A stretch of 64,000 nt of DNA from Sanyastnella coralliicola (GTDB lineage: Bacteria; Bacteroidota; Bacteroidia; Flavobacteriales_D; Sanyastnellaceae): NCBI RefSeq assembly GCF_030845195.1, contig NZ_CP132543.1, positions 2,993,501 to 3,057,500 on the forward strand, given 5' to 3'. Within the stretch, counting starts at the first letter, position 1; each line of letters starts with the position of its first letter. This document shows, in pieces, positions 3,285-62,425 of the stretch. The position numbers and the translations under genes were made by a program. The notes under the pieces are model-generated. The model saw only the letters and a program-made list of their open reading frames with translations, did no database searches and had not been told where the DNA came from.

Positions 3285-4252
3285 GCGTTGTCAAATTCAA
3301 TAAGTGCCGGACGTTGCGTGATCTCGTGATAACAGATCACTTCTGGTGACATGTAATGTACCACCATGCTTTTCCGCGTTAGCGAAGGATCATTCATCTT
3401 GATAGCGCCATGGATCAAATTGCCATGCCACAAGAAGACATCTCCTTTCTTTGGATATAAGGTCTCTGGCTTGATTCCGCGTTCAGCGACCATTTTCTGA
3501 ATGTACTCTTCGTAATGTAGATAGGCATCCTTACCCAAGAGCAAAGAATTGCCTCCATGATCAAAGGTATCGTTCAAGACATATGGAAACTTGTGGCTTC
3601 CTGGCCAGTACTGAAGTGGTCCTTGATCAGGGCCGATATCTTCAAGCGCCACCCAAGCAGCAGTCAAATACCCCAAAGGATAGGTGGTCATGTGGATGGA
3701 ATCACTGTGTGCGCGTTGCTCACTGCTCTTGAAGAAATTGATGCTTTGGAACGGCACCATATTCTTACCTAGCAAGAATTTAAAGGCATCCACGATTCCT
3801 TTGTCACGCGCTATTTTGCCCATCAACTCACCTTGACGATAAGCGAACATGATCTTCTTACCGCTGTAGTTAAAGTCAATGGTGCCGTCTTCCATCAAAC
3901 GGTCAATCTCTGCGTTGGTATTGTCAATGAACTCCTCACTGAAGTACCCACGCAAAATGGCGTACCCACCGTCTACCCACGTTTCCGCGATAGCGTCTTT
4001 CACCTTTGGATCAAGCTGATCAAAACCTGCCTGCTGTCGAATATCCGTTGAGTCATCACTCCACGGACGTTCATCCGGAAGGCTTTTGAAATCGGCACTT
4101 GAAATGGGAGCGTAGACCGATTTTTTCAAACCGTATTGCTTGTAGAGCTCTTTGTTCCGTTGCAGCAAGGCACGTTTCGACATATTAAAGATGTGATATG
4201 CCGGCTTTACGCGTCGGAAGAAACCCCAGTATTTATCAAGCAACTTAGCCAT
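3281..4252 (-). CDS. Phytanoyl-CoA dioxygenase (PhyH) family Fe(II)/2-oxoglutarate oxygenase
   Basis: 323 residues. The iron-binding facial triad is visible: H182-x-D184 in RAHSDSIHM and H281 in GNLIHGA. R293 in LTRKSMVVHY is placed to bind 2-oxoglutarate. The segment GPLQYWPGSHKFP is typical of PhyH proteins. The real substrate cannot be read from sequence; family members hydroxylate lipids, small metabolites or natural products. The start at 4252 is supported by a TAATTTTG box 4 bases upstream (4257-4264). The stop overlaps the purK start (ATGA). Two exact copies of the dispersed word lie in the gene (3372 and 3983). Confidence 0.85.
   Translation of the reverse strand: MAKLLDKYWGFFRRVKPAYHIFNMSKRALLQRNKELYKQYGLKKSVYAPISSADFKSLPDERPWSDDSTDIRQQAGFDQLDPKVKDAIAETWVDGGYAILRGYFSEEFIDNTNAEIDRLMEDGTIDFNYSGKKIMFAYRQGELMGKIARDKGIVDAFKFLLGKNMVPFQSINFFKSSEQRAHSDSIHMTTYPLGYLTAAWVALEDIGPDQGPLQYWPGSHKFPYVLNDTFDHGGNSLLLGKDAYLHYEEYIQKMVAERGIKPETLYPKKGDVFLWHGNLIHGAIKMNDPSLTRKSMVVHYMSPEVICYHEITQRPALIEFDNA
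3372..3384 (+). repeat. Dispersed word TTCCGCGTTAGCG, copy 2
   Basis: Exact copy in the PhyH gene. It is the only main-orientation copy read out of the common frame (Ser-Leu-Thr-Arg-Lys), and it overlaps the proposed 2-oxoglutarate-binding arginine. Confidence 0.85.
3983..3995 (+). repeat. Dispersed word TTCCGCGATAGCG, copy 3
   Basis: Exact copy in the PhyH gene, read as Ala-Ile-Ala-Glu. Confidence 0.85.
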
Positions 4253-4256
4253 GGAG

Positions 4257-4264
4257 CAAAATTA
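4257..4264 (-). promoter_or_regulatory. -7 box of the phyH-purK pair (TAATTTTG)
   Basis: Perfect TAnnTTTG on the minus strand, separated from the ATG at 4252 by only 4 bases. A start site a few bases downstream would fall at or inside the start codon, so the mRNA may be leaderless. Confidence 0.5.
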
Positions 4265-4346
4265 GAATTAGAAATAGAACTAGGGTGATATTCGGCCTGA
4301 TAATTGTACTAATCATGTACCTGAATGTCGTCCGAAAGCAAAAAAG

Positions 4347-4354
4347 TATATTTG
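4347..4354 (+). promoter_or_regulatory. -7 box of the 4358 gene (TATATTTG)
   Basis: Perfect TAnnTTTG only 3 bases before the ATG at 4358. It lies between the longer in-frame ATG at 4325 and 4358 and so argues for the 4358 start. Possible leaderless mRNA. Confidence 0.5.
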
Positions 4355-4357
4355 ATT

Positions 4358-4924
4358 ATGAAGTATCTCATTGCCGCAGCCATTTTCTTTAGTTCCATTA
4401 CCGCGTTTGGCCAACGCAGTGACAATAATAATATGGCCGGACAACAGCGCTGGGTGTTTGGTGGAGATATTGCTCTTTCATTCGGAACCAATATTACTGT
4501 AATTGGTGCTGCCCCTTCTGTTGGATATCGATTTACCGAAAGGCTGACTGCAGGTGGAGGATTTCTCTATTACTACTATCGTTTCAGAGATAACCTCGGT
4601 GAATTCAGCACATCGATTTATGGACCTCAGCTGTTCGGTCGTTTCACAGCATTCCAGGATTTGATTTCTGATGGAGACCGATTATTTCTTCAAACCGACT
4701 TTTACAATATCAATACTGAGTTCTTGCAGGTCGTTGAGACTGACCCATTGACAGTGGAACAACGTCGTGATTGGGTGCCTCAGTGGTTTGTTGGCGGCGG
4801 GTACTACACTTCTATAGGGGGCAATGTATTCGCAGGACTCACGGTAATGTGGGACGTCATTGGAGATAGCCGCGCACCTTTCCAAAGTCCACTTATTCGA
4901 GGTGGAATTTCTTTTGGTCTCTGA
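4358..4924 (+). CDS. Small outer-membrane beta-barrel-like protein
   Basis: 188 residues from the ATG at 4358. That start gives a good signal peptide (MKYLIAAAIFFSSITAFGQ), whereas an in-frame ATG at 4325 would put 11 polar residues in front of it. The mature part alternates short glycine/aromatic strands (RWVFGGDIALSFG, PSVGYRFTERLTAGGGFLYYYY) and ends in GGISFGL with the frequent glycine pattern of small OmpA/OmpW-size barrels. About eight strands are plausible. No enzymatic motif is seen. It is monocistronic between a minus-strand gene and mscS. Function unknown. Confidence 0.75.
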   Translation: MKYLIAAAIFFSSITAFGQRSDNNNMAGQQRWVFGGDIALSFGTNITVIGAAPSVGYRFTERLTAGGGFLYYYYRFRDNLGEFSTSIYGPQLFGRFTAFQDLISDGDRLFLQTDFYNINTEFLQVVETDPLTVEQRRDWVPQWFVGGGYYTSIGGNVFAGLTVMWDVIGDSRAPFQSPLIRGGISFGL

Positions 4925-4945
4925 TCTAGTTTCTTTTTTCTCGAT

Positions 4946-4953
4946 TAATTTCG
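4946..4953 (+). promoter_or_regulatory. -7 box of the mscS-like gene (TAATTTCG)
   Basis: TAnnTTCG variant 4 bases before the ATG at 4958. Spacing is the same as for the phyH and permease genes. Confidence 0.4.
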
Positions 4954-4957
4954 CGGC

Positions 4958-6022
4958 ATGGAAGAATTTCTCTCCTATGACCTGTGGGGTAACCCTGTGC
5001 AAGAATGGCTGATCGCTAGTGCCTTCTTCGTGGGTAGTATCGTACTCGCGAAGTTCCTTTACTGGACATTCGGACGCATCTTCAAAAGCCTTGCTTCACG
5101 CACGAAAACGAAGCTTGACGACATTCTCATCGACATGCTCGAGGAGCCGATTGTTTTCGCGATTGTGATCATTGGAATGTGGTGGGGGTATGACCACCTC
5201 GACTTCGGTGAGGGAGTGCAGGTGTGGGTGCAGCGGGTCTTCCGTATCCTGATTGCCATCAATATTACTTGGCTCATTGTGCGTTTGGTAGATGCAGTTA
5301 TGAGTGAATTCCTCATTCCATACGCTGAGAAGAGCGATGGCTCTATGGATCAAGTGATGCCGGTCATCCGCAAGACAATCAAAGCTCTCATCTGGGTATT
5401 GGGGGTGTTACTTGCCTTGAATAATGCTGGTTACGACGTAGGGGCCTTACTCGCCGGGGTTGGTATTGGCGGTCTAGCGATGGCTATGGCCGCTAAAGAC
5501 TTTGTGGCGAATATCTTCGGTGGTATCACGGTCTTCATTGACAAGCCTTTTGTGCTTGGAGATCGAATTAAAATTGACGGTCATGACGGAATGGTTCGTG
5601 ACATTGGCATCCGTTCAACTAAGATCCAAACTCTGGAAGGGAGGTTCATTACTGTGCCAAACCACAAGTTCACTGATAGCTACGTCGAAAACGTCACAAG
5701 TGAGCCTTCTCGAAAGATGACCATTACGCTTGGTCTGACTTATGACACCTCGCACGAGGACATTAAGAAGGCCAAGACCATTCTACAAGAGATTGCCGCT
5801 AAACACAATCAAACAGAAGATCGATACTTCGTTTGGTTTGCAGGATTCGGCGACTTCAGTTTGAATGTTTCTATGATCTACTACATCGCAAAGGATGGAG
5901 ATCTTTTCGATGTGCCGAATGAGGTGAACCTTGAAATTCTAGAACGATTTAATGAAGCCGGCTTGGAATTCGCCTTCCCTACCCAAACGGTATATCACTC
6001 TTCTTTAGACCAGGGTAAATAA
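4958..6022 (+). CDS. Small-conductance mechanosensitive channel, MscS family
   Basis: Inner-membrane channel that opens under membrane tension on osmotic downshock. 354 residues with about four hydrophobic segments (near residues 17-37, 65-80, 92-110, 135-160). The pore helix is the Gly/Ala-rich stretch ALLAGVGIGGLAMAMAAKDF (about 165-184), followed by the MscS beta-domain with FIDKPFVLGDRIKIDGHDG and VPNHKFTDSYVENVT. The C-terminal alpha/beta domain is present. The last 28 bases overlap the 3' end of the convergent mtgA gene. Confidence 0.92.
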   Translation: MEEFLSYDLWGNPVQEWLIASAFFVGSIVLAKFLYWTFGRIFKSLASRTKTKLDDILIDMLEEPIVFAIVIIGMWWGYDHLDFGEGVQVWVQRVFRILIAINITWLIVRLVDAVMSEFLIPYAEKSDGSMDQVMPVIRKTIKALIWVLGVLLALNNAGYDVGALLAGVGIGGLAMAMAAKDFVANIFGGITVFIDKPFVLGDRIKIDGHDGMVRDIGIRSTKIQTLEGRFITVPNHKFTDSYVENVTSEPSRKMTITLGLTYDTSHEDIKKAKTILQEIAAKHNQTEDRYFVWFAGFGDFSLNVSMIYYIAKDGDLFDVPNEVNLEILERFNEAGLEFAFPTQTVYHSSLDQGK

Positions 6023-6678
6023 TCCTTCCCTCCTAACAGACGCATTTGCTTCTCCACCTTGTAGGCTCGATTGCTCAAGTAGCTACTCGGTTTACCAGGA
6101 TTGGAACGACGCGGTTGTGGAAATGCGCTCACCATCAAAGACGCTTGTCGCCGTGAAACATCGGTGCATGATTTGCCGAAGTAATGTCGAGCAGCGGCAT
6201 CCACTCCGAAGCATTGTGGTCCCGTTTCGATTACGTTGAGGTAGACCTCCATGATGCGCTCCTTACTCCAGAAAATTTCGATGAGGGCCGTAAACCAGAC
6301 TTCGAGTCCCTTGCGAACCCAAGTACGCGAGGGCCACAGGAACACGTTTTTCGCCGTTTGCTGCGAAATGGTGCTGGCCCCAATGGTGCGTTCGTGGGTC
6401 TTATTGTATTCGATGGCTGCAGCTATCGCTTCTGTATCAAATCCCCAATGGCTAGGGAAACGCTGATCTTCAGCTGCAATTGCAGCAAGCGGCAGTTGGT
6501 AGCTCATTTCTTTTAAGTCTACCCACTCTCCTTCTTTCTCGGTTCCTTGCCAGATTTGAAGTGCTGTGATTGGTGGGTTCACCCATTTATAGAGCAAGAC
6601 CCACGCCACCGAAAAGATGATAAATCGGATCGCGACCCAACGGAAGATTCTCCATATCCTACGTAAGAGTCGCAACAT
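5995..6678 (-). CDS. mtgA: Monofunctional biosynthetic peptidoglycan transglycosylase
   Basis: Family GT51 enzyme that polymerises lipid II into glycan strands at the periplasmic face. 227 residues; an N-terminal membrane anchor (about 10-32) follows a basic start. The GT51 motif with the catalytic glutamate is seen in AAIAAEDQRFPSHWGFD (about 64-80), then GASTISQQTAKNVFLW and MEVYLNVIETGPQCFGVDAAA. No transpeptidase domain follows, which separates it from bifunctional PBPs. Its 3' end overlaps the convergent mscS gene. Confidence 0.93.
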   Translation of the reverse strand: MLRLLRRIWRIFRWVAIRFIIFSVAWVLLYKWVNPPITALQIWQGTEKEGEWVDLKEMSYQLPLAAIAAEDQRFPSHWGFDTEAIAAAIEYNKTHERTIGASTISQQTAKNVFLWPSRTWVRKGLEVWFTALIEIFWSKERIMEVYLNVIETGPQCFGVDAAARHYFGKSCTDVSRRQASLMVSAFPQPRRSNPGKPSSYLSNRAYKVEKQMRLLGGKDYLPWSKEE

Positions 6679-6682
6679 ACTT

Positions 6683-7801
6683 TTAGCCGTTTACTCGACC
6701 CTTGAGGTCTTTTGACAAACCGTCTTTATGAAGAAGGATTGAAATCGTTTTCAATCGGAAGTATGCCATGCTGATGTACTGGTATCCGTCGTAATCGTTT
6801 CCAGTTCCCCAAGAGTTTTTGATCATGAAGTAGCGATTCCCTTCTTGGTCTTCCGCAATACCTGTGAGGTGCATCAAGTGATCGTCAGTCGTTTTGTAGT
6901 TCTCAAAACCTTCTTGACGCATTTCTTGAGTTACCGATGGTTCTTTGATGATCGTTTTAAACATCTTGTCTTTCGCTGTACCCGCTGGTGGAACGATTGC
7001 CATTCCTTCACGGAAACTGAATCCTCGTTCACTAACGTCAGCATCCCATGCCACAGTATATCCATTTTCCAAAGCGTCTACTACAGCTTGTTCAAGTTCG
7101 TCGATAGACACGTTGTAGAATGAACCTTGAGAGAAGTTATCTGGCACTTCCAAGACGAACCATGAGTTCATTGGGTGGTGCGTAAAAGATGTCAAGCTCA
7201 CGTAGTCATCGGCTACAATACCGAGTTCATCACGCAATGAAGCAGGCGTGTATTTCTTGCCTTGGTATTCAAATTCACCAGGCATTTCACCGAGATAAGC
7301 ATCGAGTACGCCTTCTACTGCTTCCATCCATGTTGCACCTGAAGCTGCATTTCTCTTCTCAACAACCGCTTTCACGATGCCTTCAAGAATCGCATCCATT
7401 TCCCCGTGATCATGGCGATCTGCGTTGTATTCGATTCCGTCGTATACGCTTTCTGGAACAACACCGTAGTCACGAATGGCATTGATTACATCGTGACAAA
7501 GGCTTCCTGGTCCGAACTGATACTTCCCGTGGTAGCGCACGTACATCTCTGCCTTTCTCGGGTAGGTCACACGCACGTTGAACATCTCTGAAAGGTCATG
7601 TTCTCCTTTACCCATACGAATCAACTCGCTTTCTATGAAAGAAGTCGTTGAGTAACTCCAACAAGTACCGGTGCGACATTGGTCTTTAGTAGATGTCGCA
7701 TCGAGGTTAATCTTCTCTTTGAACTTGTATGCGTTTTGAGCAGAAAGGCTTGCGCTTGCCAGAACAATGATGGCAAGGAATAGAACTGACTTGAAATTCA
7801 T
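6683..7801 (-). CDS. Secreted C1-family cysteine peptidase (bleomycin hydrolase/PepC-like)
   Basis: 372 residues with a signal peptide (cleavage after about residue 21, SLSAQ). The catalytic set is in the order of the C1B aminopeptidase C family: C47 in RTGTCWSYS, H308 in DDHLMHLTG and N329 in MIKNSWG, with Gln41 in the oxyanion-hole position. A secreted C1B-like peptidase is common in Bacteroidota and may trim peptides in the periplasm; substrate is not readable. The gene ends 4 bases before the mtgA start, so the two may be co-transcribed. It is divergent from ddl. Confidence 0.87.
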   Translation of the reverse strand: MNFKSVLFLAIIVLASASLSAQNAYKFKEKINLDATSTKDQCRTGTCWSYSTTSFIESELIRMGKGEHDLSEMFNVRVTYPRKAEMYVRYHGKYQFGPGSLCHDVINAIRDYGVVPESVYDGIEYNADRHDHGEMDAILEGIVKAVVEKRNAASGATWMEAVEGVLDAYLGEMPGEFEYQGKKYTPASLRDELGIVADDYVSLTSFTHHPMNSWFVLEVPDNFSQGSFYNVSIDELEQAVVDALENGYTVAWDADVSERGFSFREGMAIVPPAGTAKDKMFKTIIKEPSVTQEMRQEGFENYKTTDDHLMHLTGIAEDQEGNRYFMIKNSWGTGNDYDGYQYISMAYFRLKTISILLHKDGLSKDLKGRVNG

Positions 7802-7832
7802 CTTGTAGCAGGTATTATTATTCTCATCAAAG

Positions 7833-7859
7833 CGCTTCGAAGCAGTATGAATCGAAGCG
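7833..7859. promoter_or_regulatory. 8-bp inverted repeat between peptidase and ddl genes
   Basis: CGCTTCGA (7833-7840) and TCGAAGCG (7852-7859) are exact inverted arms separated by 11 bases. It lies in the divergent intergenic region, where an operator would be expected. No T-run follows, so it is not an obvious terminator. Could be chance. Confidence 0.3.
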
Positions 7860-7977
7860 AATGGTCACGTAAGATAGGATAAACGCCGCGCACTGTTGAC
7901 AACGAAAAGCTGAAAAAAGGCCAAAAGTGCACGTCGTACATCAGAGTACGGAAAGTACTTTCACATGGAATTCGATT

Positions 7978-25376: not shown

Positions 25377-25524
25377 GTGGTGCGTAGTTCGTGGTTCGTG
25401 GTTCGTGGTTCAAACCTATTCCATTCCACGTTCCGCAATCCGCGATCCACTTTTATGGAATTCATCAACCAAGTGCATCTAATCAACAAACCCCACGAAC
25501 CACGCACTACGAACCACCAACCAA
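25377..25524. repeat. Long imperfect palindrome of GTTCGTGG units
   Basis: Left arm repeats TTCGTGG three times from about 25389; right arm (about 25490-25524) repeats its complement CCACGAACC and CTACGAACC. Between them are CCATTCCACG and CCGCAATCCGCGATCC units. Read as RNA it would fold into a long hairpin in the leader of the 25531 gene. The unit family recurs at 27.1, 32.6-32.8 and 56.8 kb. Confidence 0.65.
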
Positions 25525-27018: not shown

Positions 27019-27186
27019 GAAGAATAAATAATGAATTATAAATAGTGATTAATGAATTTGGGGCATTCGTAATTCATGATTCAAAATTCACCGCGTTCCG
27101 CAATCCGCGTTCCGCCTTCCTCGTTCCACATTCCACGATCAACGTTCCACGAACCACGCACCACGCACCACGCACCACGCACCACC
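27019..27186. repeat. Composite intergenic repeat
   Basis: AT-rich part (27021-27090) with GAAT/TGAA units resembling the cassette at 56.7-62.3 kb; then a GC-richer part with CCGCAATCCGCG and CACGCACCACGCACC tandem units. It fills most of the 328-base gap before the sigma factor gene. Nothing coding is seen. Confidence 0.6.
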
Positions 27187-32493: not shown

Positions 32494-33040
<547 letters not shown>

Positions 33041-53651: not shown

Positions 53652-53659
53652 TAACTTTG
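53652..53659 (+). promoter_or_regulatory. -7 box of the mbnP-type operon (TAACTTTG)
   Basis: Perfect TAnnTTTG, 53 bases before the ATG at 53713. No clear -33 element. Confidence 0.5.
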
Positions 53660-53712: not shown

Positions 53713-54462
53713 ATGATGAAGCACGTAATGATGTTGGCGCTGGCTGCAGCGATGATCACTTTTATCGGGTGTGAAGATCCGGAACCTATTGAAGGAACTC
53801 TTCGCCTGGGCGCAAAAGCGATGTACGATGGAAACTCAATGATTATTGGAGATGTCTACACAGACAACAATGATCGTCCGATTAACATCGAACAGTTCCG
53901 AACCTACATCTCAAGTATGAAGGCGGTGAAAGATGATGGAACCATCGTGCACATCAAGGCGATAGATCAAATCAACTTTGCGGAGAGCTGGTTCTTCGAT
54001 GCGACGCTTCCTGCAGGAGATTACTCTGCGATTACCTTCGGAATTGGTGTTCCAGAATCAATCAATGCAGATCAAGATCCGGCACAGTACCCGAACGATC
54101 ACGTACTTGGCTTCACCGGAAACAACGGTATGTTCTGGTCGTGGAACTCTGGCTACATCTTTACCAAATTTGAAGGAAAAACTGCCTTGGACGGAGATGA
54201 AAACAGCATGACGGATCCATACGCATTCCACGTGGGTACCGACAACTTTTACGAAGAGTTCACTTTCAATGTAGACTTCGAAATTGATGAAGCGCGTACC
54301 GATGTCGACATAATCTTCAACTGTGAGCAATTCCTTGAAGGCACGGATGACTCTATTGATCTAGCGACAGACAACATCACGCACACCGCAGATAATATTC
54401 CGTTGGCGGAACGCTTTATGGCGCTCTTCCGCGACGGCATCAATGTGGAGCTAGCGAATTGA
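53713..54462 (+). CDS. MbnP-type copper-site protein (lipoprotein)
   Basis: 249 residues; lipobox FIGC gives C20, so outer-membrane or periplasmic anchoring. Beta-sandwich domain. W142-x-W144 in GMFWSWNSGYIFTKFEG and W93 in ESWFFDATL match the tryptophan-rich core of MbnP-family proteins. In characterised MbnP a Trp is oxidised to kynurenine by the partner MbnH and the site binds copper; whether that happens here is inference. Overlaps the next gene by 4 bases (54459-54462), so it is translationally coupled to a di-heme peroxidase-like protein, the expected partner. Confidence 0.8.
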   Translation: MMKHVMMLALAAAMITFIGCEDPEPIEGTLRLGAKAMYDGNSMIIGDVYTDNNDRPINIEQFRTYISSMKAVKDDGTIVHIKAIDQINFAESWFFDATLPAGDYSAITFGIGVPESINADQDPAQYPNDHVLGFTGNNGMFWSWNSGYIFTKFEGKTALDGDENSMTDPYAFHVGTDNFYEEFTFNVDFEIDEARTDVDIIFNCEQFLEGTDDSIDLATDNITHTADNIPLAERFMALFRDGINVELAN

Positions 54463-55493
54463 AAAAATGGTCGGCATACCTCGTGCTTGGTCTTGTAGCG
54501 TTTATTGCTTGCAAGGAAGAACGCGTATTGCCTGATCAAAATGCAGAAGCCGACTTCGAATATATCGAAGTGGAGACACCAGCAGGTTTTCCGGCCATCG
54601 ATTACCCGATGGAAAACAGACCGACCACAGAACGCATCGAACTGGGGCGACTCCTATTCCACGATGCGCGATTGTCACGTGACAATACCGTGAGCTGCGC
54701 TTCGTGTCACTTGGCCAGTCATTCATTTGCAGACAATGAGGCACAGAGCGTGGGTGTGGACGGATTACGCGGTGATCGAAATGCACCTTCATTAGCCAAC
54801 GTCGCATACCATCCTTACTTCTTTATGGATGGAGGAGTACAGACCCTCGAACGCCAAGTCATTGCACCCTTAGACAATGTCCTTGAAATGGATCACGACA
54901 TCGTTGAAGTCAGCGATGAACTGGCCCAAGATGAATTACTCAACACTCTTGCGCAAGCCGCTTATGGAAGAAACCTCGATCCTTTCGTATTGACCCGATC
55001 GATTGCCGCTTACGAGCGTACATTATTGTCTGGTGATAGTCCGTATGACCGCTATTTGCAGGGTGATCAATTCGCCTTGACGGCGGAAGAAAAAGCGGGC
55101 ATGGAGTTGTTCTTTTCAGAACGCACCCAATGCGGCAGTTGCCACAGCGGATTCTTGTTGACAGATTTCAGCTTCAACAACATTGGGTTGGAGGAAGAAT
55201 ACCTAGACAAAGGACGTCGCCGCGTATCTGGGGATGAATCAGACAACGGCAAGTTCAAGACACCGAGTCTTCGTAATGTCGCCTTAACGGCACCTTACAT
55301 GCACGACGGAAGTCTTCGAACCTTGGAAGAAGTGATTGATCATTTTAACTCAGGCGGTGTCGACCACGACCTGAAAGACGATCGCATACAACAACTAAAC
55401 CTCACCGAAGAGGAACAGTCTCAACTCAAAGCATTTTTATTGGCACTGACGGATAAGTCGTTCGTGACCGAGGCTTTGACTGCAGGAAACTGA
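54459..55493 (+). CDS. Di-heme cytochrome c peroxidase/MbnH-like lipoprotein, copy 1
   Basis: 344 residues, lipobox FIAC (C18). Two c-type heme sites: C80-x-x-C83-H84 (SCASCHLASHSF) and C225-x-x-C228-H229 (CGSCHSGFLL). The conserved FKTPSLRNVALTAPYMHDGS is typical of MauG/CcpA-type di-heme proteins. Periplasmic or membrane-anchored. In MbnP systems such a protein performs the Trp oxidation; a plain H2O2 peroxidase is the alternative. Overlaps MbnP gene. Confidence 0.88.
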   Translation: MKKWSAYLVLGLVAFIACKEERVLPDQNAEADFEYIEVETPAGFPAIDYPMENRPTTERIELGRLLFHDARLSRDNTVSCASCHLASHSFADNEAQSVGVDGLRGDRNAPSLANVAYHPYFFMDGGVQTLERQVIAPLDNVLEMDHDIVEVSDELAQDELLNTLAQAAYGRNLDPFVLTRSIAAYERTLLSGDSPYDRYLQGDQFALTAEEKAGMELFFSERTQCGSCHSGFLLTDFSFNNIGLEEEYLDKGRRRVSGDESDNGKFKTPSLRNVALTAPYMHDGSLRTLEEVIDHFNSGGVDHDLKDDRIQQLNLTEEEQSQLKAFLLALTDKSFVTEALTAGN

Positions 55494-55500
55494 TTCTCTG

Positions 55501-55508
55501 TAGATTTG
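55501..55508 (+). promoter_or_regulatory. -7 box of second di-heme gene (TAGATTTG)
   Basis: Perfect TAnnTTTG in the 25-base gap before the ATG at 55519. The second peroxidase gene may also be made from its own transcript. Confidence 0.4.
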
Positions 55509-55518
55509 TAATAGCACT

Positions 55519-56622
55519 ATGCAACGACGCATTCTACATATCGTACTGGCATTTATCGGGATTACTATCACGATGGCCAGCTGTAAGCATGACATTCCAG
55601 AAGTGGAAGAAGAGATTGTGATGGTTGGGACTCCTTACAATTTGGAGATCCCTCCATTCTTCCCTCCGATGGACATCCCTGCAGACAATCCATTGACCGT
55701 GGAAGGTGTAGAATTGGGTCGTCACCTTTTCTGGGAGGTAGCCCTTTCAGGAGACAACACGATGAGCTGTGGTTCATGCCATTTCCCGGAACATTCCTTT
55801 TCTGACCCTGCACAATTTAGCGTCGGCATCACTGGAGCTGTCGGCACACGCCAATCAATGGCCCTACTCAACCTCGGATGGGCCCGTGATTACTTCTGGG
55901 ACGGGCGCGCACCAACGCTCGAAGAGCAAGTACGCGAACCGATTCCGAACCCAATTGAAATGAATCAGTCGTGGGAAGACGCCCTCGAAAAGCTGCGCAA
56001 TATTGACGCCTACCCGCCGATGTATGCCGATGCCTTTGGAACAACCGAGATCACTGAAGACCGCACCGTTAAAGCCATTGCTTCTTTCTTGCGCACCATG
56101 ATCTCAGCTAATTCGAAGTTCGATCAGTGGCGCCAAGGCGACTACATCATGACCGACAGCGAATGGCGCGGTTACGAGCTCTTCAACAAAGAAGGCGGTG
56201 ACCCCGAAGAAGTTCAAGGCGGCGAATTCGGAGCAGACTGTTTCCACTGCCACGTAGAGGCCGGACTACAGTTCACAGACTACCTCCCCCACAACAACGG
56301 ACTCGACAGCATCTTCACCGACCTCGGCTACGGTGGTGTCACAGGAAATCCACTGGATTACGGGAAATTCAAAACCCCATCACTGCGCAACGTAGAACTC
56401 TCAGCCCCCTACATGCACGACGGTCGTTTCGAGACCCTCGAAGAAGTCATCGAACACTACAATTCCGGCGGTGTCGCTTCCGAAACAGTAGACCCGTTCA
56501 TGAAGTACACCACAGGCGGCCTCTCCCTACCACCCCAAAGCAAGGAGGACTTGATCAATTTCCTAAAGATGCTCACGGATACGAGCTTCACGACGAACCC
56601 TGATTTTCAGAATCCGCACTAG
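55519..56622 (+). CDS. Di-heme cytochrome c peroxidase-like lipoprotein, copy 2
   Basis: 367 residues; lipobox MASC (C22). Heme sites C84-x-x-C87-H88 (SCGSCHFPEHSF) and C241-x-x-C244-H245 (DCFHCHVEAGL). Shares FKTPSLRNVELSAPYMHDGR with copy 1 but has an extra loop (GGDPEEVQGGEFGAD) before the second heme. It is a diverged paralogue of copy 1, not a recent duplicate. May oxidise MbnP or another protein. Confidence 0.87.
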   Translation: MQRRILHIVLAFIGITITMASCKHDIPEVEEEIVMVGTPYNLEIPPFFPPMDIPADNPLTVEGVELGRHLFWEVALSGDNTMSCGSCHFPEHSFSDPAQFSVGITGAVGTRQSMALLNLGWARDYFWDGRAPTLEEQVREPIPNPIEMNQSWEDALEKLRNIDAYPPMYADAFGTTEITEDRTVKAIASFLRTMISANSKFDQWRQGDYIMTDSEWRGYELFNKEGGDPEEVQGGEFGADCFHCHVEAGLQFTDYLPHNNGLDSIFTDLGYGGVTGNPLDYGKFKTPSLRNVELSAPYMHDGRFETLEEVIEHYNSGGVASETVDPFMKYTTGGLSLPPQSKEDLINFLKMLTDTSFTTNPDFQNPH

Positions 56623-56886
56623 ACGGTAGACGGTAGACGGTGGACGGTGGACGGTGGACCGGAAGAATAAATAATGAATTTGAATAGTGAATGGTGAATT
56701 GAAGGTACTCCCCGAAAGTTCATTATTCAGTATTCATTAGTTATTAATCATTATTCGAGGAGGTACGTGGTTCGTGGTTCGTGGTTCGTGGTTCGTGGTT
56801 CGTGGAGACTAATCATCCTATCCGCCTCAGGCGGACTAATCATGCTTTCAGCCTACCGCATACCGCATACTGCCTACCGCCTACAA
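56623..56886. repeat. Composite intergenic cassette, copy 1
   Basis: Order: GGACGGTGGACGG minisatellite (56623-56660); AT-rich imperfect hairpin with left arm TGAATAGTGAATGGTGAA and right arm TTCATTATTCAGTATTCA (56664-56757); GTTCGTGG tandem repeats (56768-56806); REP-like TCCGCCTCAGGCGGA with CTAATCA; ACCGCATACTGCCTACC units (to 56884). Nothing coding or otherwise recognised is seen in the 391-base gap. Confidence 0.75.
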
Positions 56887-57013: not shown

Positions 57014-58567
57014 ATGAGAATCGCCCTCTCTCTCACATTCTTGTGCGTTGTTCAATTGCTTAGTGCTCAGTATAAAGGTGACGACTTTTGGTTTGCATTT
57101 GTTCCGCAACCGGAAGATGAAGCCGATAGTGAATTATCCTTAATTATTGGTTGTGACGAAGAAACCGTCATTGACATTTCTGCCCCTCACTTGCTTTGGG
57201 ACACAACTCTCACTGTTGACGCGAATTCAATCGAAGCGTTTGTCTTCCCCAATGATTTATTGCTTGACGAATATGACGGAGCATCAGTCTCCATGAATGG
57301 AATTCACGTAAATAGTTCAGCACCTATTTCCTTGCAGACAGGATCTAGTTACTCCTACAATGCAGGAAGTGTCAATTTATTTCCGTCTAGTTTAAACGGG
57401 CAACACTATATCCACGAAAAGTGGAATGGTGCGGCCATTGGAAGTGAAAGTACTCTTCTGATGGTAGCCAATGAAGATGATACTCAAGTATCCGTATTGC
57501 AGACTGATGGTTTCAACAACGAAGAACAAATCTTCTTTTTGGAGGAAGGGCAAGTTGGATATGTGCACTTAGAATATCAGGAGTATGATTGGTTTGAGGT
57601 CGACGCGAACCATCCAATCAGCGTATACTCGGTAGCCAGTTGCGTTCAACTTCCTGTTGGGTGTGGGGCATGTGACTTAGTAGCCTATCAAAATCGTCCG
57701 AATCAGCTTTCAGGACTAGAATTCATTGTGACAATGCCTCTCGGATCATCGTCGACCGGATACAGCGTGCAAGCAACGCAAGACGACACATTTGTCCAGA
57801 TTGGAGATCAATTTTTCGTGCTACAACAAGGCGAATCATATTCAGAAACAACAGAGGAATCAACGCTTGTTATCTGTTCAGACCAACCTATTCAAGTCAA
57901 GCAACATTATAGCGGCACAACCTGCGCTGGATTTGGTGATCCTGAGTCGTTCTTTCTTCCGGATATGACTATTGGCTTCAGTGAGGCAACCTTTGTTATC
58001 GAGGAACAAGTTGACTACGACGACCAACACGCGATCCATGTATTAGCATCCACTGACCATTTGGATGAGATCTTCCTCAATGGGCAGCCAATCGATAACA
58101 ACGAATTTTCAGCTACTGAGAATCCCGACTATTCATACGCAGAACTACCGGTACCTCCCGGGAGTTACTCAATAACTTCCAGTGAACCATTCCAAGCTTG
58201 GTCTTATTGGATGGATTTCGCAATTTCCTTTCAAAGTTATCCTGGCAGATACACCTTGTCTGAGGGTATCGGATGCACAGATCCACTGGCCTGTAATTTT
58301 AACCCCACAGCGTCGATCGATATTGGTAACTGCGAATACGCAGCACCCTTTGCCGATTGTAACGGTAATTGTCTCTTTGATTTAGACCTAGATGGAAACT
58401 GTGAAGGTACTCTCGGAGATTTCTTAGAAGACGGTCAGGTCAACATTGAAGACCTCCTAGAAATGCTCAACTTCTTTGGCTGCACAGAACCACAATGTCC
58501 AGGAGATCTAAATCAAGACGGAATCACCAACGTACAAGACTTGATTGCCTTTCTAACGCTTTTGTAG
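57014..58567 (+). CDS. Secreted protein with IgGFc-binding-like N-domain and C-terminal dockerin-like repeats
   Basis: 517 residues, signal peptide ending LLSAQ (about 19). GDDFWFAFVPQPE and the VYSVASCVQLPVGCGACDLVAYQ block resemble the IgGFc-binding N-terminal domain found in secreted bacterial and animal proteins. A Cys-rich repeat (GCTDPLACNFNPTASIDIGN) is followed by two EF-hand-like repeats (DGQVNIEDLLEMLNFFG and DLNQDGITNVQDLIAFLTLL) at the extreme C-terminus. No T9SS domain. Function is unknown; adhesion is an inference. Confidence 0.8.
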   Translation: MRIALSLTFLCVVQLLSAQYKGDDFWFAFVPQPEDEADSELSLIIGCDEETVIDISAPHLLWDTTLTVDANSIEAFVFPNDLLLDEYDGASVSMNGIHVNSSAPISLQTGSSYSYNAGSVNLFPSSLNGQHYIHEKWNGAAIGSESTLLMVANEDDTQVSVLQTDGFNNEEQIFFLEEGQVGYVHLEYQEYDWFEVDANHPISVYSVASCVQLPVGCGACDLVAYQNRPNQLSGLEFIVTMPLGSSSTGYSVQATQDDTFVQIGDQFFVLQQGESYSETTEESTLVICSDQPIQVKQHYSGTTCAGFGDPESFFLPDMTIGFSEATFVIEEQVDYDDQHAIHVLASTDHLDEIFLNGQPIDNNEFSATENPDYSYAELPVPPGSYSITSSEPFQAWSYWMDFAISFQSYPGRYTLSEGIGCTDPLACNFNPTASIDIGNCEYAAPFADCNGNCLFDLDLDGNCEGTLGDFLEDGQVNIEDLLEMLNFFGCTEPQCPGDLNQDGITNVQDLIAFLTLL

Positions 58568-58570
58568 CGG

Positions 58571-58850
58571 AACAATGGTAAATGACTAATGGTGAATTGA
58601 ACGGGTGACCCAACAGTTCATTATTCAGTATTCATTAATTATTAATCATTATTCGAGGGGGTTATTGGTTATTGGTTATTGGTTATTGGTTATTGGAAAC
58701 TAATCATCCTATCCGCCTTAGGCGGACTAATCACGCTATCCGCCGCAGGCGGCCTAATCACGCTATCCGCCGCAGGCGGCCTAACCATGCTTTCAGCATA
58801 CCGCATACAGCCTACACTTAAGCCTTAAGCCATAAGCCCTACGCCCAAAA
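58571..58850. repeat. Composite intergenic cassette, copy 2
   Basis: AT-rich arms (58577-58660), GGTTATTGG tandem (58662-58695), three REP-like units (58700-58793) of the TCCGCC/GGCGGA type, then GCATACAGCC and CTTAAGCC units. It fills the 309-base gap. Confidence 0.75.
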
Positions 58851-60412: not shown

Positions 60413-60640
60413 AGTAATAAATAATGAATTTGAATAGTGAATGGTGAATTGAAGGGGCACCCAGAGAGTTCATTATTCAGTATTCATTAATTATTAATCA
60501 TTATTTGAGGGGGTTTTTGGTTTTTGGTTTTTGGAAACTAAACATGCTATCCGCCGCAGGCGGACTAATCATGCTTTCAGCCTACCGCATACAGCCTACC
60601 GCCTACACTTAAGCCTTAAGCCATACGCCCTACGCCCAAA
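60413..60640. repeat. Composite intergenic cassette, copy 3
   Basis: AT-rich imperfect hairpin (60417-60510), GGTTTTTGG tandem (60514-60534), one REP-like unit TCCGCCGCAGGCGGA (about 60550-60564), CCTACCGCATACAGCC and CTTAAGCC units. Very similar to copy 2 over the hairpin. Confidence 0.75.
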
Positions 60641-62209: not shown

Positions 62210-62425
62210 ACCGTGGACCGTGGACTGAGGACCGGAAGAAGAATAAAAAATGAATTTGAATAGTGAATGGTGAATTGAAGGTACACCCAGAGAGTTCATT
62301 ATTCAGTATTCATTAATTATTAATCATTATTTGAGGAGGTTATTGGTTATTGGTTATTGGTTATTGGAAACTAATCATCCTATCCGCCGCAGGCGGCCTA
62401 ATCATGCTTAGAGCCTACTGCCTAC
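62210..62425. repeat. Composite intergenic cassette, copy 4
   Basis: GACCGTGGACCGTGG units, AT-rich imperfect hairpin (62237-62332), GGTTATTGG tandem (62338-62368), one REP-like unit TCCGCCGCAGGCGG (about 62382-62396), GCCTACTGCCTAC units. Confidence 0.75.

Follow-up and report, generated by a model that had tools for sequence, protein, structure and literature searches.

Di-heme enzymes of the MauG type make protein-derived cofactors, and in the portions of the literature consulted each described pair consists of one enzyme and one partner protein. MauG acts on methylamine dehydrogenase, and in the bacterial cytochrome c peroxidase of Pseudomonas the C-terminal heme is ligated by Met275. In the MbnP/MbnH pair of Methylosinus trichosporium OB3b, with Protein Data Bank (PDB) entries 7l6g (MbnP) and 6e1c (MbnH), the first Trp of the MbnP motif is reportedly oxidised, and a Met and a His are said to take part in the copper site. 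Here, we analyzed a locus of a 64,000-nucleotide stretch (hereafter the window) of Sanyastnella coralliicola contig NZ_CP132543.1 (positions 2,993,501 to 3,057,500), in which an MbnP gene is followed by two different di-heme genes, A and B. This set resembles that of MopE, a copper protein whose kynurenine derives from a Trp and whose gene neighbours one for a di-heme peroxidase (PMC3621798). The inter-heme residue of MauG is Trp93 and the sixth ligand of its second heme is Tyr294 (PMC6405878). The related BthA has Ser at the Trp site, yet forms a bis-Fe(IV) state, and it converts hydrogen peroxide to water; changing its Tyr ligand to His abolished the bis-Fe(IV) near-infrared feature and kept peroxide reduction (PMC6405878).

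Gene content and organization of the locus

The locus (53713-56622, + strand) holds an MbnP gene and then two di-heme genes of the CCP_MauG family, and the three form one operon:

53713..54462, + strand: MbnP, 249 aa, matching PF20243 at E 2.3e-29
54459..55493, + strand: di-heme A, 344 aa, TTG start, matching PF03150 (CCP_MauG) at E 1.7e-51
55519..56622, + strand: di-heme B, 367 aa, matching PF03150 (CCP_MauG) at E 3.9e-55
FIGC, C20 of MbnP: lipoprotein-type signal with a lipobox-type motif

The set is a variant of the MbnP/MbnH kind, with two di-heme enzymes in a conserved set and with predicted chemistry and copper binding. Judged by catalytic residues, the first enzyme (A), not the second (B), is the aberrant one. 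Tentatively, we favour a reading in which B makes kynurenine and A is an old accessory enzyme, so that the operon would build a kynurenine-dependent copper site on a lipoprotein.

MbnP scored 103.1 bits on PF20243 (curated cut-off 27), and its gene overlaps that of A by 4 nt. A and B, which are 39.5% identical over 319 aa, each contain two CXXCH motifs along with the CCP_MauG domain expected of an MbnH. The initial annotation, which had described an MbnP with two different di-heme partners, coupled by overlap to the first of them, is borne out in these respects. The best PDB match was MbnH 6e1c for both A (E 1.4e-50) and B (E 1.6e-53). Searched alone, the window's MbnP matched 7l6g only at E 0.96, ranked under four chance-like invertase matches; a profile of 20 MbnP relatives matched the MbnP of 7l6g at E 4.5e-8, in an alignment that puts the M, both W and the H in register. 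On the MauG equivalog TIGR03791, A and B scored 190 bits each, under the cut-off of 443.85, and no mau operon was found among the immediate neighbours, beyond which no search was made. Lipoprotein-type signals were judged by eye to be present on MbnP, A and B.

Distribution of the gene set in relatives

MbnP was matched in 97 of 395 genomes of the phylum and was near-universal in the order (379 of 399 genomes), while a relative of the window's own MbnP occurred in 111 of 114 genomes of the family. Loci (L) and genomes (G) of these relatives are numbered below. The phylum sample comprised 119 regions fetched around MbnP matches (L120 duplicating the tail of L121), and the family sample 60 loci, hand-picked from the upper part of the list and spanning many genera; a contig scan of genomes yielded one locus only.

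Half of the family loci (30, called by script) were triples of MbnP, A and B, 27 held MbnP and B only, and L180 ended at MbnP. A was also present in L187 (2723-4019), where B is split over two frames by a possible frameshift or assembly error, and in L213, whose contig ends after A, which brings the loci with A to 32 of 60. With starts called mechanically, the 4-nt overlap recurred at the MbnP-A junction in 20 of the 30 triples and at the A-B junction in 11. A single MbnP accompanied both enzymes in 27 of them. Four-gene sets ordered MbnP'-MbnP-A-B were found in the same family in L169 (19-3724), L170 (2152-5917) and L178 (217-3876), their two MbnPs being about 21-29% identical to each other. 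A simple lipobox pattern was detected in 20 MbnPs, 25 A and 18 B proteins of the 30 triples, and the lipobox Cys column was filled in 30 of 31 MbnPs; by this crude test the predicted lipoprotein character does not appear uniform across the family triples.

In the phylum sample, MbnP was directly followed by two di-heme genes in 10 of the 119 regions, among which L046 is the second copy of the window's own genome and L080 (G178) a triple with two B-like enzymes, assigned to neither class. Other arrangements comprised MbnP-B-MbnP-A, with one MbnP ahead of each enzyme (L129 of G109, 4175-7971), a second di-heme gene about 2.5 kb further on (L077, L112), and an MbnP flanked by two di-heme genes, the preceding one of 649 aa with Tyr at the Trp site (L153, 4368-8227). 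L142 held only a di-heme fragment, at a contig end, and no di-heme gene was recognised in four regions (L076 and L162-L164). The remaining phylum regions displayed one di-heme gene per MbnP, or two MbnPs with one (L058, L074).

The window's own genome thus harbors two MbnP-A-B triples. The second (L046, 7882-10902; C1 462881-465901) encodes an MHWGW-type MbnP with a type IX sorting domain, and an A protein with Arg at the Trp site. Two kinds of triples were distinguished accordingly: the window's kind, with a lipoprotein-type MbnP mostly reading MFW.W, and another kind, including L046, with a longer MbnP reading MHWGW. A type IX secretion sorting domain was found in the MbnPs of four scanned triples of the other kind (L046, L054, L121, L157) and in the long MbnP of L129.

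Since the triple is conserved in many relatives, it is neither a peculiarity of the window's genome nor a chance neighbourhood. An opposite-strand UvrD-type helicase gene flanks the locus both here and in G045 (L047), so that the locus looks inherited rather than mobile. The close relative L045, apparently on the same contig as L165, shares 94% DNA identity with the window's genome over 6.5 kb.

Copper-site motif of MbnP

Three candidate elements of the copper site were located in MbnP:

54130..54144, + strand: M140-F-W142-S-W144, candidate copper Met and WxW, with W142 as the predicted kynurenine site
54229..54231, + strand: H173, candidate copper ligand, standing opposite the MVHVG His of 7l6g
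54382..54384, + strand: H224, second invariant His of the window's MbnP lineage; its ligand role is a guess

The MFWSW region aligns with MAWNW of 7l6g, WSW standing opposite WNW, so the earlier placing of W142-x-W144 in the right kind of motif holds. In this alignment M140, W142, W144 and H173 provide the Met, the WxW and the His at the copper-site positions, and the MbnP sequence fits a kynurenine-copper site as in 7l6g. W142, H173 and H224 were present in all 60 family MbnP rows, W144 in 57 and M140 in 56; the 123 phylum rows had H173 in 119, W142 in 117, W144 in 111 and M140 in 99. H224 was found in all 46 MbnPs having A versus 47 of the 128 without it. Y49 and N145 were relaxed in the A-less clade of the family rows. 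W144, N145 and Y49 were each considered as the target of A and set aside, as the comparison amounts to only 2-3 independent contrasts with no test significant; N145 and Y49 are besides frequent in MbnPs without A (57 and 53 of 128).

Catalytic residues of the two di-heme proteins

A and B differ at two positions that align with residues of MauG:

54825..54827, + strand: Met123 of A, at the inter-heme Trp site (MauG Trp93), by alignment
55344..55346, + strand: Phe296 of A, at the Tyr heme-ligand site (MauG Tyr294), by alignment
55897..55899, + strand: Trp127 of B, at the inter-heme Trp site; Trp in 67 of 67 B-class proteins
56458..56460, + strand: Tyr314 of B, at the Tyr heme-ligand site; Tyr in 67 of 67 B-class proteins

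The MauG register of the alignment agrees with the end points of the PDB matches of A and B. B has both residues expected of an MbnH at these positions and A has neither, while the Met ligand of the C-terminal heme in classical cytochrome c peroxidases is replaced by Phe in A and Tyr in B. The contrast extends to the relatives, which were counted as an A class of 45 proteins (33 of the window's kind and 12 of the other, with L165 excluded as a near copy) and a B class of 67 (the window's kind of triple supplied 31, A-less loci 27 and the other kind nine). The inter-heme Trp occurred in one of 45 A-class proteins, versus the whole B class, and the Tyr-ligand site of the A class read Tyr in 33, Phe in 11 and Ile in one. 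The sole Trp-bearing A-class protein, that of L178, has Ile at the Tyr site; among members of the A clade outside the class count, L049 has Phe and L009 Ile at the Trp site. L009 (C1 1942296-1942736) is a solo di-heme protein of the window's own genome, both MbnP matches of which lie elsewhere.

Residues of the peroxide site were retained in both classes (Gln in 44 of 45 A-class and 66 of 67 B-class proteins, Glu in all 45 and all 67), and Pro was found in 45 of 45 A-class proteins. The A class has invariant residues of its own (R180, V127 and P110, each 45/45), and the B class a CxHCH at the second heme (67/67). Outside both classes, in a remainder of 108 di-heme proteins that includes L049 and the near copy of the window's A, Trp was present in 87 and Tyr in 97. 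Loss of the Trp, as read from these alignments, occurs beyond the A class but is the rule in A. Phe stands at the Tyr site in L055, L065, L078, L086, L092, L093, L094, L101 and L103, which form one clade reading DYF, and in L107.

The initial annotation had taken the second di-heme protein for the diverged one. The reverse was found: B, which occurs in each of the 27 A-less loci, retains every residue of the MauG/MbnH set, and it is A that has lost its inter-heme Trp and, in the window's protein, the Tyr as well.

Ancestry and selection

A proteins formed one clade (support 97 on one tree, 99 on two others), and so did the B proteins of the window's family, whether or not A accompanies them (support 96). 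A recent tandem duplication giving A and B was disfavoured: placing A and B in one clade cost 57 log-likelihood units (approximately unbiased (AU) test, p 0.0099), on a quick 70-row tree of chosen rows whose groups had been defined with knowledge of earlier trees. The independent joining of A to two unrelated B lineages was unsupported as well, since a single B clade was not rejected (AU p 0.655) and the constrained tree was even better. On the family MbnP tree the A-less loci lie on one side of a branch (94/94), and A was apparently lost once in the family, the tree being rooted on a single long-branched outgroup (L050). Three changes are required to account for where A occurs across 174 MbnPs.

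Relative to L045, the ratio of nonsynonymous to synonymous substitution rates (dN/dS) was 0.025 for MbnP, 0.062 for A and 0.165 for B, indicating purifying selection on A and B. The value for A, together with the invariant residues of its class, rules out a decaying copy; as it also keeps the Gln, Pro and Glu, A is a maintained protein.

Proposed function and alternatives

The enzymatic steps, the copper binding and the role of A are proposed here from gene content and order, conservation, residue differences, selection and ancestry. B, as an MbnH-type enzyme, would react with hydrogen peroxide to reach a high-valent di-heme state and would convert W142 of MbnP into kynurenine; copper would then be held by M140, H173 and possibly H224. 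A would belong to the same pathway as a further di-heme protein, separate from B since ancient times, keeping the Gln, Pro and Glu of the peroxide site and both heme motifs. Its most likely role would be that of an accessory to B: a partner subunit, or else a peroxidase or electron carrier by which the oxidant is tuned. With no Trp relay and, in the window's protein, no Tyr ligand either, A probably performs no MauG-type radical chemistry on its own. The 27 family loci with MbnP and B but no A all keep W142, H173 and H224, which suggests that B suffices for an A-less MbnP. B is the likely kynurenine maker because it alone accompanies an intact MbnP there, and A would be accessory in this lineage because it was long kept, yet lost, apparently once, with the main motif undamaged.

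Several observations weigh against this reading. MbnP scored 50.6 bits on the NCBI equivalog TIGR04052 (cut-off 140), a family of copper-binding MbnPs with WxW whose older name refers to four Cys; the window's MbnP has two Cys in total, one of them that of the lipobox. On TIGR04039 (MbnH, a hypothetical equivalog), A and B reached 268 and 262 bits, below the cut-off of 362.85, although it was the top-scoring NCBIfam family for both, and eight scanned relatives likewise fell under the cut-off. The few neighbouring genes scanned included none recognised as a copper gene. In the trees, the long-branched MbnH 6e1c lies on the side of A (support 94 and 88). The Trp is replaced in 21 of the 108 di-heme proteins outside both classes, and its loss is not decisive, since BthA forms bis-Fe(IV) without an inter-heme Trp (PMC6405878). 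The ten loci listed above for their Phe at the Tyr site are single-enzyme MbnP loci and keep the Trp, so Phe there is not clearly disabling. In L049, L124, L127 and L148 A is the only di-heme protein adjacent to MbnP, with WxW kept; these solo loci and the ten Phe-bearing ones indicate that A may be catalytically able.

A closer collaboration, in which A and B act together on one MbnP as a mixed complex or in sequence, is somewhat unlikely. The Trp-less, Tyr-less A would then have given up radical chemistry and assist the intact B as its partner or electron gate. To our knowledge, no such division of labour is known for MauG-type enzymes.

It is unlikely that A and B each evolved for an MbnP of their own, the window representing a four-gene set minus one MbnP and A now modifying a different protein or an MbnP encoded elsewhere. 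Each enzyme does stand behind its own MbnP in L129, and L169, L170 and L178 have two MbnPs ahead of A and B in the same family; these loci keep the idea alive. In G041, of the same order, an A-clade enzyme (L049, on a long branch) and a B-like one (L050) lie at separate loci with MbnPs of their own. The window's genome has a second MbnP, but this one comes with an A and a B of its own (L046), and one MbnP accompanies both enzymes in 27 of the 30 family triples.

More doubtful still is the view that both enzymes oxidise the same MbnP, at two residues or in two steps (e.g., W142 and W144). W144 is present in all 46 MbnPs with A versus 113 of 128 without, and A-clade enzymes occur alone with WxW MbnPs in four loci. 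The W144 link, however, comes down to 2-3 independent contrasts and is not significant, W144 is kept anyway in those 113 A-less MbnPs, and the window's A has neither the Trp nor the Tyr.

That neither enzyme modifies MbnP, both being ordinary hydrogen peroxide peroxidases sharing its operon, is very improbable: the CCP_MauG family of A and B is wide, with about ten members in the genome (12 match rows), but B has Tyr and not Met at the ligand site, differing from the bacterial peroxidase 1eb7, and a di-heme gene, whole or cut, adjoins MbnP in 115 of 119 phylum regions.

Promoter-like boxes and neighbouring features

Two matches to the Bacteroidota -7-type promoter consensus TAnnTTTG lie at the locus:

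53652..53659, + strand: TAACTTTG, promoter-like box 61 nt before MbnP
55501..55508, + strand: TAGATTTG, box before B

Both strands of the 64 kb contained 21 such boxes, fewer than the 32.6 expected from shuffles. The box before B is kept in the close relative L045, though the surrounding stretch drops to 72% identity, and a TAnnTTTG at most 45 nt before the B start was found in 18 of 30 family triples. Ahead of A the count was 3 of 30, ahead of MbnP 5 of 28 and ahead of B in A-less loci 1 of 27; as background, tiles within A genes gave 3 of 666 and those within B genes 16 of 728. Of the 18 boxes, ten fall between genes, six of these in a single genus; the other eight are located in Leu-Pro-Leu codons of A's coding end. 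A chance origin of the box was dropped upon its recurrence in relatives, with the caveat of these eight coding and six single-genus cases. The promoter box that the initial annotation had assigned to the second di-heme gene is therefore promoter-like and recurrent, while a separate transcription start for B is plausible but unproven.

Downstream of the operon, at 57014-58567, lies a gene for an IgGFc-binding-domain protein with a dockerin-like C-terminal stretch that scores below its curated cut-off. The window also contains many short tandem arrays of 7-base period with differing units (GGTTCGT, TAGACGG, CCACGAA, GGTTATT and others), at 25377-25523, 27091-27185, 32503-32826, 56620-56884 (intergenic), 58617-58696, 60469-60607 and 62295-62367.

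Significance and comparison with described systems

An intact enzyme beside a paralogue without the two residues linked to bis-Fe(IV) constitutes a natural experiment on the role of those residues, for which the A-less sister clade offers ready controls. With the conserved set it can be tested whether one copper site is the work of two enzymes, and because MbnP is near-universal in the order, the answer matters for how a large bacterial group handles copper. Two di-heme partners for one MbnP were not described in the portions of the literature searched, to which Manesis 2021 and Kenney 2019 did not belong; they may be noted there.

The set shares with MbnP/MbnH of Methylosinus trichosporium OB3b the MbnP family by profile, the M..W.W and His aligned with 7l6g, and di-heme proteins that both match MbnH 6e1c best in the PDB. 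It differs in having two di-heme partners instead of one, in its lipoprotein-type signals, in the lack of a four-Cys pattern, and in that no methanobactin gene was recognised among the immediate neighbours scanned. In MopE/SACCP and CorA/CorB of methanotrophs, in contrast to the window, there is one di-heme partner. B resembles MauG in its Tyr ligand position and inter-heme Trp, and BthA in the Tyr position; nine A-class proteins have Ser at the Trp site, like BthA, while the window's A, unlike MauG and BthA, lacks the Tyr as well.

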